From the NCBI GenBank assembly GCA_947501275.1, contig CANMVD010000007.1:49570-113569 (forward strand): 64,000 bases of DNA, written 5' to 3'. The stretch comes from an uncultured Tateyamaria sp. (GTDB taxonomy: Bacteria; Pseudomonadota; Alphaproteobacteria; Rhodobacterales; Rhodobacteraceae). Under the pieces are notes generated by a model. It saw nothing but the letters and a program-made list of their open reading frames with translations, was not told where the DNA came from and made no database searches. The position numbers and the translations under genes were made by a program. This document shows, piece by piece, positions 55,927 to 64,000 of this stretch. Each line of letters starts with the position of its first letter. Positions within the stretch are counted from its first letter, which is position 1.

Positions 55927-56000
55927 GGCGAGTTGGCGGAGTGGTGACGCAGCGGATTGCAAATCCGTATACACCGGTTCGATTCCGGTACTCGCCTCCA
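55927..56000 (+). tRNA. tRNA-Cys (anticodon GCA)
   Basis: GGCGAGTTGGCGGAGTGGTGACGCAGCGGATTGCAAATCCGTATACACCGGTTCGATTCCGGTACTCGCCTCCA; cloverleaf-compatible, encoded CCA. Confidence 0.95.
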
Positions 56001-56030: not shown

Positions 56031-57098
56031 TCATGGGGTATCACCTCTAGTATCAGTTTCTTGCTTTGTGCTCGTTTCGTTCAATAGCTGCTCCCATAGC
56101 ATTCTTTTCTCTGCAGCGGTTTTGGCGCGCATAATCTGACGTGCAAAACCCGCATATTTGATCACCATTTTCTTAGTTTTGTGACCGCTGTAACTCATGA
56201 TCTCGTCATCATCACAACCTGCCCAAGCCAGCTCCATAACACCGCGATAGCGCATGGCATGTAAATCATGCGCCAAAACGCCGAGGCGCTTGCGCTCAGC
56301 GCGCATAACGCGAGCGATCTTGTGATAACTCATGGGTGAACCGTCTTCGTTGGCCAATATTGGACGATCTGGCTTAGCTTTTTCGCCAAGTGCAGCTTTC
56401 AAAGCATCAAGTTGAGCAATAAGATTTGGTGTACAGGGAAGTTGAAGTTCCACTCCCGTTTTATTCTGGGTCAAATCGAGGTTCTTGTCTTTATAGTGTA
56501 ACCAAGTGAAACCGTTTAAGTCTCCTGGTCGTTGGACAGTACCCACCCCGAGCTCAAAAATGAGCATTGGCAATTCACTTGCGTTGTTTCGCCAAGTCTC
56601 GACGGCCACATCTGTCCACGGAATGTGTGGTTTTTTCCTGTCGTCAGGAACTCGCAAGCGTTCGATTCCTGCGGCTGGGTTTTCGTGAAGCCAACCTTTT
56701 CGCCTCGCTAATTTCGCCAGCAACGTTACCGCTACAGGAATGTAGTTTGCGAAATTGACTCGGTGGGCATTCTTGTCCATCGCATTATAGATGTCGGCTG
56801 CCGTGAGCCTTGCAACGTCTCGCTGGCCAATTTTTTTATCCAGGTAAATGAAGGACTTCTCCAAGTCCTCTCGGTAACGCTGCTCATAACCTGCCCATTT
56901 GTCCGTCTTTCGAAATTCTTCGATCAGTACGGACCAAGACCGCTTCGACACATGGCGTTTGCCGCGCAGTATTTCCCAATACTCGTCGTCGAACGCTTGT
57001 GTGCCTGCATCCGCGTGAATTCGGTAGTACTGCCCGCCTTTGCGAACATACCAACGGCCACTTGGGTGTTGCCAAAGGTACTTCTTTCGGCTCACCAA
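56031..57098 (-). CDS. int: Tyrosine recombinase/integrase
   Basis: Catalytic residues visible: GTVQRPGDL (R), HDLHAMRYRG (HxxR), GHKTKKMVIKYA (H...Y); adjacent to tRNA-Cys. Confidence 0.93.
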   Translation of the reverse strand: MVSRKKYLWQHPSGRWYVRKGGQYYRIHADAGTQAFDDEYWEILRGKRHVSKRSWSVLIEEFRKTDKWAGYEQRYREDLEKSFIYLDKKIGQRDVARLTAADIYNAMDKNAHRVNFANYIPVAVTLLAKLARRKGWLHENPAAGIERLRVPDDRKKPHIPWTDVAVETWRNNASELPMLIFELGVGTVQRPGDLNGFTWLHYKDKNLDLTQNKTGVELQLPCTPNLIAQLDALKAALGEKAKPDRPILANEDGSPMSYHKIARVMRAERKRLGVLAHDLHAMRYRGVMELAWAGCDDDEIMSYSGHKTKKMVIKYAGFARQIMRAKTAAEKRMLWEQLLNETSTKQETDTRGDTP

Positions 57099-57307: not shown

Positions 57308-57520
57308 TCAGCGCTTTTCCGGCGTGTCCCGCAGCGGTTCGACCGTGTTCGCGGTGAGGTATTCTTCCATCGCGCCAACCGGTAACAGATAAAGCCCACC
57401 GACTTTGATGTGTTTAACCTCTTTGCTTCGGATCAACCGACGCACACGGGCTAACGGCCAACCTAAGCGAAGAGCAACCTCGGCTGGGCTTTCGTACTCT
57501 TGGTTGCGCGCTGTCTCCAT
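57308..57520 (-). CDS. Excisionase-family (HTH_17-like) DNA-binding protein
   Basis: YESPAEVALRLGWPLARVRRLIRSKEVKHIKVGGLYLLPVGAMEEYL. Confidence 0.72.
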   Translation of the reverse strand: METARNQEYESPAEVALRLGWPLARVRRLIRSKEVKHIKVGGLYLLPVGAMEEYLTANTVEPLRDTPEKR

Positions 57521-57596
57521 TTGGGCACTCCCTGCAACTGTTGGCTCACGAGATGTATCCGAGTACAATCAACACGAATCTAAACATCTGAGTTAT

Positions 57597-57641: not shown

Positions 57642-58064
57642 ATGAACAGCATCGGCGAACGCATCGAAGTGGTCAGAAACAAAAGCGGTCTTTCACAAGA
57701 AGCGTTTGCAGAAACTTTGGGTATAAGCCGCAACTCATATTTCAAGTACATCCGAGGGCACCGAGCCATCCCATCTGATGTGTTTTCCGCGATCCTTGAG
57801 AAGTACGGCACTCACCCAGCATGGCTCCATGAGGGTGACGAGGGCCTTACGAACCGCACAACATCCCTTCTCGATGAGATGAAGCACATACTTCAAGCAG
57901 TTGACAATCGCGCTGAGGAACGGGGCCTTGCCATCGATTTTGATAAAAGATGGCTGATAGCCTGCCGGATTTGCGTTGAGCGCGTCATGGCTGCGAAGCA
58001 AAGCGAAGATGTGCCAGAGGTCGCCGTTGCTGAAATCGACAATTGGCTGGAGGTGGCACAATGA
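57642..58064 (+). CDS. XRE-family HTH regulator
   Basis: IGERIEVVRNKSGLSQEAFAETLGISRNSYFKYIRGHRAIPSD. Confidence 0.87.
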   Translation: MNSIGERIEVVRNKSGLSQEAFAETLGISRNSYFKYIRGHRAIPSDVFSAILEKYGTHPAWLHEGDEGLTNRTTSLLDEMKHILQAVDNRAEERGLAIDFDKRWLIACRICVERVMAAKQSEDVPEVAVAEIDNWLEVAQ

Positions 58065-58442: not shown

Positions 58443-60077
58443 ATGCCCACCCTACGCTGGTTGACCAGAGATGACGATGTAAGAGCCGCCGAGAAGGTAC
58501 CTTACCGCCTTTTAGAGGAAGTGCCGAAACTGGGTTATGGCGACCGGGACGCAGGCAATATGCTGATCCAGGGCGATAACCTGGAGGCATTGAAGGCCCT
58601 GCTGCCCTACTACGCGGGCCAGGTGAAGTGCGTCTATATAGACCCGCCATTCAACACCGGCCAAGCATTCGAACACTATGACGACAACCTGGAGCACTCA
58701 ATCTGGCTCGGGATGATGGTTCCCCGAATGCAGCTTGTTCATGAACTCTTAGCGCCGGGTGGGACAGTGGCTGTCCATCTTGATGACGAAGAGCTCGCCT
58801 ATTTTATTGTGATAATGGACGAGATTTTTGGGCGCGCGAACAGGGTGAACTTAGCGACTTTCGTTCAAGGAGCTGCAGTTGGACATAAATCAATCAACCC
58901 AGGCCTGGTTACCGTCACAAACTACGTTCTTATGTACGCTAAGGACAAATCTGAGGCATGGGCCCCTTATCGCGTCTTTAAAGGAAGGGAACGCGACAAA
59001 CGATATTCATCGTTCATCGAGAACTATGACGAGCCGTATAAAGGCTGGAAGCTGGTCCCACTAACCAGAGCCTTTGCGGCCAGTAACGAGATGAAAGTAA
59101 CTGAGCATAAAAAGACACTCGGGGATGAGTATGAGAATGCGCTAAACGAGTTTGTCATTGAGAACTCGCACCGCGTTGTACAGCCCGTTTCTCCTGACTA
59201 CAATGCCGTCGGTCAGGAAACCCGCGACATGATCGGCTTGTCATTGCAGGAACCAGATCGCCTTTTCCTACAAGAGCGGGAAAATCACCCCGATATCTAC
59301 CTTCAGAACGGCAAGCGATGGCTATTTTATCGTGGAAAACTCAAAGAAATCGACGGTCAGCTCATTGCTGGAGAGCCGTTGACCAATCTTTGGGACGACC
59401 TTCGGTCGAACAACCTGCACAACGAAGGACAAGTCAAATTCCCAAAGAGCAAGAAGCCTGAAGCGCTCGTCAAGCGTGTGTTTGAGCTCTTTTCCGAACC
59501 AGGGGACCTTGTGCTGGATAGCTTTCTTGGATCAGGAACGACTGCCGCTGTGGCACACAAAATGAACCGGAAATGGATTGGAATCGAGCGAGGCGACCAC
59601 GCTGTAACGCACTGTGCGCCGCGTCTACAAAAGGTTATCGATGGGGAGATCGGCGGCATCTCTAAGGCCGTCAAATGGCAAGGCGGCGGCGGCTTCCGAT
59701 TCTACCGGCTTGGCCCGCCCGTGTTCGACGAAAATGGCTCTATCCAGCCCGATATCCGCTTCCCCGTGCTGGCCGCGCACATCTGGTTTGCCGAAACCGG
59801 CATGCCATGGTCCGAACCCGATAGGCTGACACCCTTTATTGGCAGTGACGACGGTCACGGCTATGCGCTGCTCTACAACGGCATTCTCGGCGACAAATCG
59901 GTCAGCGGCGGCAACGTACTGACCCGCAAGACACTTGCTGTGATCCGCGCGGCGCAGGGCGATTTCATCGGCCCACTCACCGTTTATGGCGAGCGCACCG
60001 CGCTGTCAGAGGCGACACTGAAGGCCGAACGGATAGAATTCAAACAAACCCCTTATGATGTGAAGGCACGCAAATGA
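58443..60077 (+). CDS. mod: Type III restriction-modification DNA (N6-adenine) methyltransferase, Mod subunit
   Basis: VYIDPPFNTG (DPPY motif) precedes DSFLGSGTTAAVA (FxGxG), beta-class order; directly followed by res. Confidence 0.92.
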   Translation: MPTLRWLTRDDDVRAAEKVPYRLLEEVPKLGYGDRDAGNMLIQGDNLEALKALLPYYAGQVKCVYIDPPFNTGQAFEHYDDNLEHSIWLGMMVPRMQLVHELLAPGGTVAVHLDDEELAYFIVIMDEIFGRANRVNLATFVQGAAVGHKSINPGLVTVTNYVLMYAKDKSEAWAPYRVFKGRERDKRYSSFIENYDEPYKGWKLVPLTRAFAASNEMKVTEHKKTLGDEYENALNEFVIENSHRVVQPVSPDYNAVGQETRDMIGLSLQEPDRLFLQERENHPDIYLQNGKRWLFYRGKLKEIDGQLIAGEPLTNLWDDLRSNNLHNEGQVKFPKSKKPEALVKRVFELFSEPGDLVLDSFLGSGTTAAVAHKMNRKWIGIERGDHAVTHCAPRLQKVIDGEIGGISKAVKWQGGGGFRFYRLGPPVFDENGSIQPDIRFPVLAAHIWFAETGMPWSEPDRLTPFIGSDDGHGYALLYNGILGDKSVSGGNVLTRKTLAVIRAAQGDFIGPLTVYGERTALSEATLKAERIEFKQTPYDVKARK

Positions 60078-62734
60078 AGCTGAAGGATTATCAGAAGGCG
60101 TCCCTCGCCACCCTGCGCGCGTTTTTTGAAAAGGCCCGCGTCACCGGCCCCAAAGTGGCTTATGAGACGCTGACCGCCGAACCAGAGCTGCGCGACCGTC
60201 TGCGCGGGTATGCAGCAGGCTACAAGCCCGTTAAGGGGCTGGATGACGTGCCTTACGTTTGCTTGCGCTTACCAACGGGTGGCGGCAAGACAATCTTGGC
60301 GTCGCACTCCATCACGATTGCCAAGGATGCATGGATCGAAAAGGATTTCCCTGTTGTTCTGTGGCTGGTGCCGACGAATACGATCCGCCTACAAACTGCC
60401 GAAGCGCTGAAGAACCCCAAGCACCCTTATCGCCAAGTGCTTGACGAGGCGTTCGAAGGCCGTGTGCGCGTGTTCGATATCGGTGATTTCACCCAGCTCA
60501 CACCGCACGATATGCGGTCGAACCTGTGTGTCGTCGTCGGGACCATTCAAGCGCTGCGGCAGAGCAAAACCGACAAGTACCACGTCTACCGTCACCACGA
60601 GATGCTTGAGCCGCATTTCAGTTCTGTCTCGCCAAACGCGCCGGGATTGGAGCGCAACGATGACGGACCGTGGAAGGGCGACATCAAGTTCAGCTTCGCC
60701 AACCTGATGCACCTTCACCGCCCGCTGGTCATAATGGACGAAGCGCACAAAGCCGGATCGGACCTGAGCCAGCTTGTCTATGAACGTATCAACCCCGCCG
60801 CGTTGATCGAGTTCACCGCCACGCCCAAAGGATTCAACAACATCCTCCATTCGGTCTCGGCACAGGAGCTGAAGGATGAAGAAATGATCAAGATGCCCGT
60901 CGTTCTTGACGAGGCAGAGACGTGGCAGGGAGCGGTTAATTCCGCGATCCTGAAGCGCGCTGAGTTGCAAGAATGGGCCGACAAGGACCGTGAGGGCTAC
61001 ATTCGGCCAATCGTTCTGTTTCAGGCGCAGAAGAAAAACGAAGAAGTTACTGTAGAAGTTCTCAAGAAGCACTTGATCGAGAACGAAAATATTGACGAGG
61101 ACAAAATCGCCGTTGCAACGGGTTCCCAGCGGGAATTGGATGGGATCGATCTGTTTAAGCCCGACTGCAAGATCGAGTATGTGATCACCATTGAGGCGCT
61201 GAAAGAGGGCTGGGATTGTTCCTTCGCTTACGTGTTCTGTTCCGTCGCCAACATTCGGAGCTCGACCGACGCCGAGCAGCTTTTGGGCCGAGTGTTGCGG
61301 ATGCCCTATGCAACCCGACGCAAAGCCCCTGCCCTGAACAAGTCCTATGCTCGCTTGGTATCCAAACGCTTTGCCGAAGCCGCAAACAATTTGCGCGACA
61401 AGTTGGTGGATATGGGCTTTGAGGAAAGCGAAGCCGAGGCCAATATCGAAGCTGAACAGCCGGAGCTTTTGGATGGTCTTTTCGGACACCAAGCCCGCCG
61501 CCGCCCTACATTATCGGTCGAAGTGGACGCAACACCCGAGGTGCGCCATGCCATCTCAACAATTGCGCCTGGCACCATCAAGGTTTCAGCCAGTGAAGAC
61601 GGCAAGACAGTCATTGACCTGATCGGTGTTCCTAAACCAAGCGTCGAGAAAGTACTGTACGAGCGCACCCCGGCCAACCTGCATGGTGTCTTGCGTGAGA
61701 AGATCGAGGAGTTCAAATCCAAGAACGCCGATGAGATCGCGCCATCGCACAAGGGTGAGACTTTCGTCATCCCGCGCCTCATGGTCCATGTGCAGGGAGA
61801 TCTCGTGTTTGGTGATACCGATCTACTTATGGAGTATCATGATTGGTCGCTGTCCGATCATCCCGCCCGGCTGGAGCCGTCTGAATTTGACATCGTTGAG
61901 ACCACCAACACTTTTGAAATCGACCTTGATGGCAACCGCTTATTGATTGCATCAGGTGACAGTTCCGACCAGTTGACGATGGACGTTGATGTCGAAGACT
62001 GGACACCTGCGAGCCTCGTGCGATGGCTGGATGGGAAAGTACGAGACCAGCGAATTGGCCAGCCCGAAATGTTGGCTTGGCTAGGCGATGTCGTCACCTA
62101 TCTCAACCGTGACCGCAAATTACCCTTGGCCCAGCTCATGCGTTGCAAATTCATCCTTGCACGCAAGCTGGACGAGAAGCTCAAAGGTTTCCGTCAGGCG
62201 GAGCGGAACAAGGTCTATCAGATGAACCTTTTCGCCCCAGAGGCGCGTTTGGAGGTATCGTTCGATGACGGCTTCAAATTCTTCGATGAAATGTATGCCG
62301 AAGTGCCCAAGTATCGAGGAACAAAGTTTGCCTTCCGCAACCATTTCATGGGCCGCGATGAAGTACCTGCTTTCGACGGCAAGGAGGGTGGTGAAGAGGA
62401 GCAGTGCGCCCTAGTGATCGATGGGTTGCCCGGCCTAAAACATTGGACCCGCAATGTTAGCCGTCACCGGAATTCGTTCTCGCTCCCGACTTCCACCGAC
62501 AAATTCTATCCAGATTTCGTTGCTGAGATGAATGATGGCCGGTTGCTCGTGGTTGAGTACAAAGGTCAGGACCGAACCCCGGAAGAGAGCCGAGATTCGC
62601 GGGAAAAGGACCAGATCGGCCAGGAATGGGCGAAGGCGTCTGACGGCAAGGCTGTGTTTGTTATGGCAACCATTGAGAACAAAGATGCGGGTGGAATGCG
62701 ACAGACCATCTTGGATGCGTTGAAACTGATTTAG
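60074..62734 (+). CDS. res: Type III restriction enzyme, Res subunit (DEAH helicase plus PD-(D/E)xK nuclease)
   Basis: LPTGGGKTILA Walker A, IMDEAHKAG DEAH, EFTATPKG, C-terminal PDFVAEMNDGRLLVVEYKG; ATGA overlap with mod. Confidence 0.93.
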   Translation: MKLKDYQKASLATLRAFFEKARVTGPKVAYETLTAEPELRDRLRGYAAGYKPVKGLDDVPYVCLRLPTGGGKTILASHSITIAKDAWIEKDFPVVLWLVPTNTIRLQTAEALKNPKHPYRQVLDEAFEGRVRVFDIGDFTQLTPHDMRSNLCVVVGTIQALRQSKTDKYHVYRHHEMLEPHFSSVSPNAPGLERNDDGPWKGDIKFSFANLMHLHRPLVIMDEAHKAGSDLSQLVYERINPAALIEFTATPKGFNNILHSVSAQELKDEEMIKMPVVLDEAETWQGAVNSAILKRAELQEWADKDREGYIRPIVLFQAQKKNEEVTVEVLKKHLIENENIDEDKIAVATGSQRELDGIDLFKPDCKIEYVITIEALKEGWDCSFAYVFCSVANIRSSTDAEQLLGRVLRMPYATRRKAPALNKSYARLVSKRFAEAANNLRDKLVDMGFEESEAEANIEAEQPELLDGLFGHQARRRPTLSVEVDATPEVRHAISTIAPGTIKVSASEDGKTVIDLIGVPKPSVEKVLYERTPANLHGVLREKIEEFKSKNADEIAPSHKGETFVIPRLMVHVQGDLVFGDTDLLMEYHDWSLSDHPARLEPSEFDIVETTNTFEIDLDGNRLLIASGDSSDQLTMDVDVEDWTPASLVRWLDGKVRDQRIGQPEMLAWLGDVVTYLNRDRKLPLAQLMRCKFILARKLDEKLKGFRQAERNKVYQMNLFAPEARLEVSFDDGFKFFDEMYAEVPKYRGTKFAFRNHFMGRDEVPAFDGKEGGEEEQCALVIDGLPGLKHWTRNVSRHRNSFSLPTSTDKFYPDFVAEMNDGRLLVVEYKGQDRTPEESRDSREKDQIGQEWAKASDGKAVFVMATIENKDAGGMRQTILDALKLI

Positions 62735-62793
62735 ACCCTGTGAATTTAAGCAACAAATTATGATGGGTGGCTGAAGCCGCCAATGAGGAAGAC

Positions 62794-63963
62794 ATGACAG
62801 ACGTTCTAAAACTGAACCTTCAGAATTGCTATGGAATAGGCAAACTGGAAGCAGAACTCGAGTTCAACCATAAAGGCTTCGCAATTTATGCGCCGAACGG
62901 CGTAATGAAGACCTCTTTCGCCAGAACAATGACCGACCTGTCCCAAGGGAAGTCTCCAAGCGACCTAGCATTCCCGGATCGCGATAGCATTTTCGAAGTA
63001 TCACTTAACGATGAACCCATTGTTAAAGAAGAGATATTTGTGGTTCAGTCTTACGATGAGAAGTATGCTTCCAGCGAAGTCTCGACGTTACTTGCCAATT
63101 CTGACTTGAAGCAACGATATGAAGACGTCCACCGTTCTATCGGCGAGGCCAAAAAAGAAGTCGATAGGAGCCTAAAACGCTCATCTGGGTTCGGCGAGAA
63201 GTCGCGCGAAAACCTCGATCCGATCATCAAAGAAATTTTTGGGGAGAACTACTATGACGCCCTTCTCGGCTTAGAAGGTGAATTGAGCGAGACCAGTCTC
63301 AGCAGCCTTGCAGACGCTAACTACAAGATCCTCTTCGACCCGAAAGTACTGCAGCTGCTGGCGGATGAAACCGTTGGCGAAGCAGTTGCGGATTTCGCGC
63401 AAAAGTATGATGAAATAACCGAGACATCACCGATTTTGCGACGGAATTTTCAGTATCACAATGCCACTGACGTACAGCAACAGCTTGCCTCGAACAACTT
63501 CTTTGACGCAGGGCACACTATAAGTCTAGCGGACGAAACCAGCCTTGAAAAAACAGAGTTTTCTTCAAACGAAGAACTTCGCGACATAATAGAAGCTGAA
63601 AAGCAGCGAGTATTCGAAGATGATGGCATAAAGAAAAGGTTTGATGCGTTTAACGCTAAAATCAAGAACAAGGAACTCCAAGCATTTCGTGATTACATCA
63701 CTGAAAACAAACACCTTATTCCAGAGCTGGAAGATCGCGATGCCTTTAAAAGAAAGTTATGGATGCAGTATCTTTTGCAGGCTCAAGTCCCATATGCCGA
63801 ACTCATTTCCAAATATCGGAGTGGTCAGGCCGAGCTCGAAAGCATCATAGCTGAAGCCGATGCTAGCCGAGGTGATTGGGACGACGTGATTGCGGATTTC
63901 AATCGCCGTTTCCTTTATCTTCCGTGTCCGTCGTCAGGGGTTTTGGGACCAATGGCGGCCTGA
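62794..63963 (+). CDS. AAA/SMC-like ATPase, apparently truncated
   Basis: N-terminal NCYGIGKLEAELEFNHKGFAIYAPNGVMKTSFARTM (P-loop-like), coiled-coil-rich middle, no Walker B or signature before the stop; abrupt change after FNRRFLYLP. Confidence 0.7.
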   Translation: MTDVLKLNLQNCYGIGKLEAELEFNHKGFAIYAPNGVMKTSFARTMTDLSQGKSPSDLAFPDRDSIFEVSLNDEPIVKEEIFVVQSYDEKYASSEVSTLLANSDLKQRYEDVHRSIGEAKKEVDRSLKRSSGFGEKSRENLDPIIKEIFGENYYDALLGLEGELSETSLSSLADANYKILFDPKVLQLLADETVGEAVADFAQKYDEITETSPILRRNFQYHNATDVQQQLASNNFFDAGHTISLADETSLEKTEFSSNEELRDIIEAEKQRVFEDDGIKKRFDAFNAKIKNKELQAFRDYITENKHLIPELEDRDAFKRKLWMQYLLQAQVPYAELISKYRSGQAELESIIAEADASRGDWDDVIADFNRRFLYLPCPSSGVLGPMAA

Positions 63964-64000
63964 ACTAAGCAAGAGTTTGGCTCATCTTGTTGGATTGATT

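Follow-up and report, generated by a model that had tools for sequence, protein, structure and literature searches.

A type III restriction-modification operon on a tRNA-Cys island, followed by a PDC-S46-type ATPase gene apparently interrupted by an IS3-family element

Cleavage by type III restriction-modification (R-M) systems requires ATP and two inversely oriented sites, and methylation is placed on one strand. The textbook restriction guardian, PrrC, is tied to R-M systems of another type, type Ic. It is silenced by EcoprrI and released once T4 blocks restriction (PMC3874168, PMC12707154), and ABC-HEPN proteins are recurrent R-M neighbors (PMC3710099). RloC, an AAA_13 protein, is a stand-alone ABC-HEPN anticodon nuclease, and Septu (PtuAB) consists of an ABC ATPase and an HNH nuclease gene. 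PADLOC also contains candidate families with the prefix PDC, which a passage of PMC12988326 citing Payne 2024 describes as predicted by their embedding within known systems; a search of the open-access literature found no experimental report under the name PDC-S46. Here we describe a type III operon that is followed by part of a PDC-S46 gene.

The locus lies in a 64,000-nucleotide stretch of DNA from an uncultured Tateyamaria sp. (G000:C7:49570-113569; hereafter, the window). The features that concern us are the following:

55927-56000, plus strand: tRNA-Cys(GCA), found with ARAGORN; its 3′ half is the likely island attachment site
56031-57098, minus strand: tyrosine-recombinase integrase of the island (Pfam Phage_integrase, E 9e-11)
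57308-57568, minus strand: excisionase-like HTH protein (NCBIfam TIGR01764, above cut-off)
57642-58064, plus strand: XRE-type HTH regulator, a possible control protein (Pfam HTH_3, E 2e-12; weak match to PADLOC Control_protein, E 5e-5)
58443-60077, plus strand: mod, type III DNA methyltransferase, 544 aa (PADLOC MTase_III PDLC03644, 1-542/542, E 1e-130)
60074-62734, plus strand: res, type III restriction endonuclease/helicase, 886 aa (PADLOC REase_III PDLC03650, 2-893/898, E 5e-177)
62794-63924, plus strand: 5′ fragment of a PDC-S46-type ABC ATPase gene, 377 codons (PADLOC PDLC05023, E 1e-108, profile 3-370/719)
63925-64000, plus strand: end of an IS3-family insertion sequence, interrupting the ATPase gene; an identical repeat stands at several contig ends

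Coordinates and PADLOC matches agree with the original prediction of a type III operon in which mod and res overlap by ATGA, the start of res lying inside the mod stop. A motif check found DPPF and FLGSGT in Mod, and the order DPPF before FxGxG is that of a beta-class methyltransferase of the type III family. In Res it found PTGGGKT (Walker A), DEAH, QLLGRVLR and a C-terminal PD-(E)xK, and the resulting architecture, an SF2 helicase with a C-terminal PD-ExK nuclease, places the protein in type III. Since all core motifs are present, both genes look intact, and the pair is predicted to be a complete type III R-M system. Its gene order, overlap and motifs are those of ordinary type III systems such as EcoP15I, from which the window locus differs only by the extra ATPase gene downstream. 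That gene starts at a homologue-supported ATG (62794) on the same strand, 59 nt from the res stop, much as first described.

By its profile match, the ATPase gene is an instance of PDC-S46, although the window copy holds only the N-terminal half; an intact relative (P0001) covers positions 2-717 of the 719 (E 1e-240). The fragment comprises 377 of about 735 codons and is 87% identical to an intact 735-aa protein of Allgaiera indica. Because PADLOC already contains this family as an embedded candidate, the earlier suggestion of an undescribed system loses support, and the present additions are the truncation, its setting in an island and a recurrent coupling to type III operons. On sequence grounds, the window locus is best read as a new instance of a catalogued candidate that has degenerated at this site.

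PDC-S46 was detected in 7 of 397 genomes of the same family, the window genome included, in 5/399 genomes of the phylum, and in many phyla, archaea among them. Its neighbors include type I R-M genes (hsdMSR; loci L052, L069, L078, L102 and L106) and type II methyltransferases or systems, with gene calls in the relatives' loci made mechanically. In Roseobacter plasmids the gene stands directly after sngC of SngABC (Shango) and before a CoiA-like gene, yet it is not a Shango component, and no sng genes lie next to the window fragment. Judged by these neighborhoods, PDC-S46 is widespread and promiscuous, with partners among type I, II and III R-M systems and Shango, and the specific tie to type III that had been supposed is not borne out. 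As a separate observation, SngABC, PDC-S46 and the CoiA-like nuclease gene form a five-gene co-directional cassette on three Roseobacter conjugative plasmids (L009, L010 and L011).

Intact mod-res-S46 triplets, for which a neighborhood search had been proposed, were found at four loci (L064, L066, L073 and L112, in Methylobacillus, Rheinheimera and two others). The order is res-mod-S46 at L092, and S46-mod-res in Colwellia (L079) and in G788, a genome from the unbiased phylum sample. An earlier R-M enrichment count took its seeds from these same loci and was circular; it was replaced by one in which type III res seeds were chosen independently of S46. Type III res accounts for 7 of the 558 genes within 3.5 kb of PDC-S46 and for none of the 400 beyond 6 kb (one-sided p 0.022), so that the idea of ATPase enrichment near type III genes withstood the count, a result also compatible with defense-island clustering. 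Type III-linked members are scattered in the PDC-S46 tree, with five changes against the other labelled groups, at least three of them on well-supported branches; the ten changes counted against all tree rows are an upper bound, since some contigs are too short to show neighbors. Coupling to type III operons has apparently occurred repeatedly and separately, and the intact three-gene arrangement in unrelated bacteria suggests that such systems pick up the ATPase as a mobile add-on. It is an infrequent one: another res class occurs in 36 of 399 phylum genomes, and PDC-S46 adjoins it in one of the 36 (G788). The composite system first envisaged is thus upheld as to its parts, a type III operon with an SMC/Rad50-type ABC ATPase of a defense-candidate family, and loses ground as a unit, with the ATPase truncated here and PDC-S46 lying downstream of the same mod-res module at 0 of 20 loci in the same family, four of which are cut short by a contig end, inside res or no more than about 2.9 kb from it.

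We think it rather probable that the window holds an island-borne mod-res system with an IS-cut PDC-S46 gene, and that intact PDC-S46 serves restriction systems as a second-line abortive-infection effector. The gene would have been acquired directly behind res and later cut in two by an IS3-family insertion. Intact copies may plug into differing restriction systems. The ATPase head would sense infection, whether from DNA ends, from nucleotide pools or from an R-M complex that has been blocked, and would then release a C-terminal domain whose activity is most likely that of an RNase; translation would stop, much as it does with PrrC and EcoprrI. Because PDC-S46 has a PrrC-like layout and the same kind of neighbors, its likeliest function is that of a guardian-like effector. 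PrrC with EcoprrI, a type Ic R-M system with an anticodon nuclease, is likewise an R-M-encoded ABC ATPase with a C-terminal effector domain; it differs in that the partner here is type III, the Pfam AAA_13 match of PDC-S46 is sub-threshold, and the HEPN fold is only putative. The likeness to RloC lies in a Rad50-like head, a length of about 735-830 aa and frequent location away from R-M genes, whereas the Cys pair C287/C290 of the AAA_13 alignment has no conserved counterpart in PDC-S46, and intact relatives score 20 and 22 bits against Pfam AAA_13, below the cut-off of 36. Intact cassettes such as those of Methylobacillus gramineus and Rheinheimera baltica bear on whether guardians exist for type III restriction as well, and on the target of the C-terminal domain.

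A lesser but real possibility is that PDC-S46 is an independent single-gene defense system of defense islands, co-transcribed with R-M genes through the chance of insertion and functionally unconnected to mod and res. Many family members have no detected R-M neighbor, so a working link with R-M is not required; the mixture of partners, the scatter of type III-linked members in the tree and the fact that most type III systems lack PDC-S46 also fit an independent system. It accounts less readily for the arrangement of the coupled genes: all seven of the nearby type III res genes are on the PDC-S46 strand, often within 100 nt, in Methylobacillus (L064) nothing but the trio is inserted between rarA and serS, and in Colwellia and G788 PDC-S46 is part of a conserved operon.

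The structure of intact PDC-S46 bears on how such a guardian-like effector might work. In an AlphaFold2 model of a Ruegeria relative (pLDDT 87) the ABC head is of SMC/Rad50 type, with SMC/Rad50 among its Foldseek matches; this head is shared with PrrC and RloC, and the window copy retains only its first half. The helical insert in the model is short, and the description of the protein as a coiled-coil ATPase was therefore overstated, as no long coiled coil is present. Comparison by hhalign relates PDC-S46 to AAA_13 proteins (97%, E 1e-11), and a search by sequence found no relatives of solved structure. In the model the C-terminal domain (500-735, pLDDT 88) consists almost entirely of helices. 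Foldseek gave no significant match for it, the best HEPN-fold hits having probabilities of 0.85, 0.30 and 0.09 and E-values of 0.6-2.3; the weak hits 2q00, HepT 6m6u and Las1 7y16 are proteins that we take to have the HEPN fold. A viral fold library likewise returned nothing significant for the domain. Among 62 homologues, R554, N555, H582, K640, R648, E652, Q672, H706 and a TPxxIHxNxFMxEPxxD block are invariant, so that an R-x3-E motif and a His are conserved, as in PrrC. From this we infer RNase activity, a claim that rests on residue patterns, given that no structure matched the domain significantly and that there are two competing R-x3-E...H sets; at the level of the domain, hhalign against AAA_13 C-termini was of low confidence and did not single out the equivalent set.

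An unlikely alternative is that PDC-S46 acts on DNA as a sensor-nuclease partner in the style of Septu, PARIS or Lamassu, its ABC head binding DNA ends, and the cutting of DNA or the recruitment of an effector falling to the C-terminal domain or to a partner protein. The defense matches of the ABC head point in that direction, being a retron-associated ATPase (retron Ec83 and retron IA complexes), PARIS AriA and Lamassu LmuB. The clusters of neighboring genes argue otherwise, as they contain no recurrent nuclease partner, and a C-terminal domain so large and invariant suggests that the effector is built in. A guardian-like role for PDC-S46 could also be put in a stronger form, which we advance tentatively as a possibility: a guardian module that would be mobile, would differ from PrrC and RloC and would have a C-terminal effector of its own. 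It would plug into type I, II and III systems and Shango and would give type III systems a backup suicide arm when restriction is blocked.

The suspicion that the window copy of the ATPase might be broken was correct. Its reading frame runs from the ATG to a stop at 63961-63963, homology to relatives ceases at codon 377, and the final 12 of its 389 codons are IS sequence, which supplies the in-frame stop. The sequence from 63925, TGTCCGTCGTCAGG..., recurs elsewhere in the genome, on contigs that mostly end about 77 bp into it, and in plasmids of Sulfitobacter and Ruegeria (Roseobacter) the same sequence occurs where annotated IS3 transposase genes end. As read from the contig, then, the gene is disrupted by an IS3-family element; the last base of the window is the contig end, and therefore nothing is visible beyond the IS end. 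A frameshift was rejected as the cause of the break, the frame being clean up to the IS end. Contigs C10 and C18, considered as the continuation of the gene, each terminate in this IS end without carrying the C-terminal half. The fragment has a Walker A motif (APNGVMKTS), and a motif check found no ABC signature (LSxGE), Walker B, H-loop or C-terminal domain in it. With these parts gone and the other half not found in the assembly, the window copy is very probably inactive. A working composite system is accordingly not shown at this locus; the type III pair of this genome probably acts alone, its effector broken, and the window exemplifies the decay of such an add-on beside a type III system that has been retained.

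It is very improbable that the assembly created the junction and that the cell has an intact gene. The contig does terminate within a repeat, where short-read assemblies break, but the junction runs from unique sequence through about 76 bp of the IS, and the missing half had no second place in the 99.98% complete assembly when a full-length relative was used as query (E up to 10). Least credible of all is a live short protein or mod-res regulator made from the fragment in this strain, for although the 389-codon frame is open and closed in frame by the IS, the missing ABC signature, Walker B and H-loop are invariant in all 62 homologues.

The mod-res pair is carried by a predicted integrative island adjoining the tRNA-Cys gene. 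A 47-bp repeat of the 3′ half of that gene occurs on contig C10, about 9.4 kb from the C10 end that bears the same IS end; because of this attachment-like repeat and the shared IS end, the right part of the island probably lies on C10. The corresponding segment (G000:C10:78772-88164, L183) encodes a 1222-aa nSTAND1 protein and other ORFs, which lie between the repeat and the IS3 end. A sister island occurs in genome G211 (L147), where the integrase is 85%, the excisionase-like and HTH proteins 94%, and res 97% identical to those in the window, and mod only 55%. A swap of Mod's target-recognition part would be expected to leave such a pair, a 97% identical res beside a 55% identical mod. Past res, the sequence of the sister island diverges within about 60 nt, and PDC-S46 is absent from it.

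At one of the 20 same-family loci (L156:7413-9752, in the relative G357), an AAA_13 ATPase (PrrC/RloC-type, PDC-S06) stands behind a homologous mod-res pair in place of PDC-S46, and the position behind res resembles an effector slot. On a Methylocystis plasmid (L171:1590-6343), a PaeR7I-type type II R-M system is directly followed by an AAA_13 ATPase. The Colwellia locus (L079:4856-19004) and that of G788 (L220) share a seven-gene order of WYL regulator, SNF2-type helicase, DUF4391, S46, mod, res and GmrSD (HEC-06-like), an arrangement that may be described as a multi-layer restriction operon.
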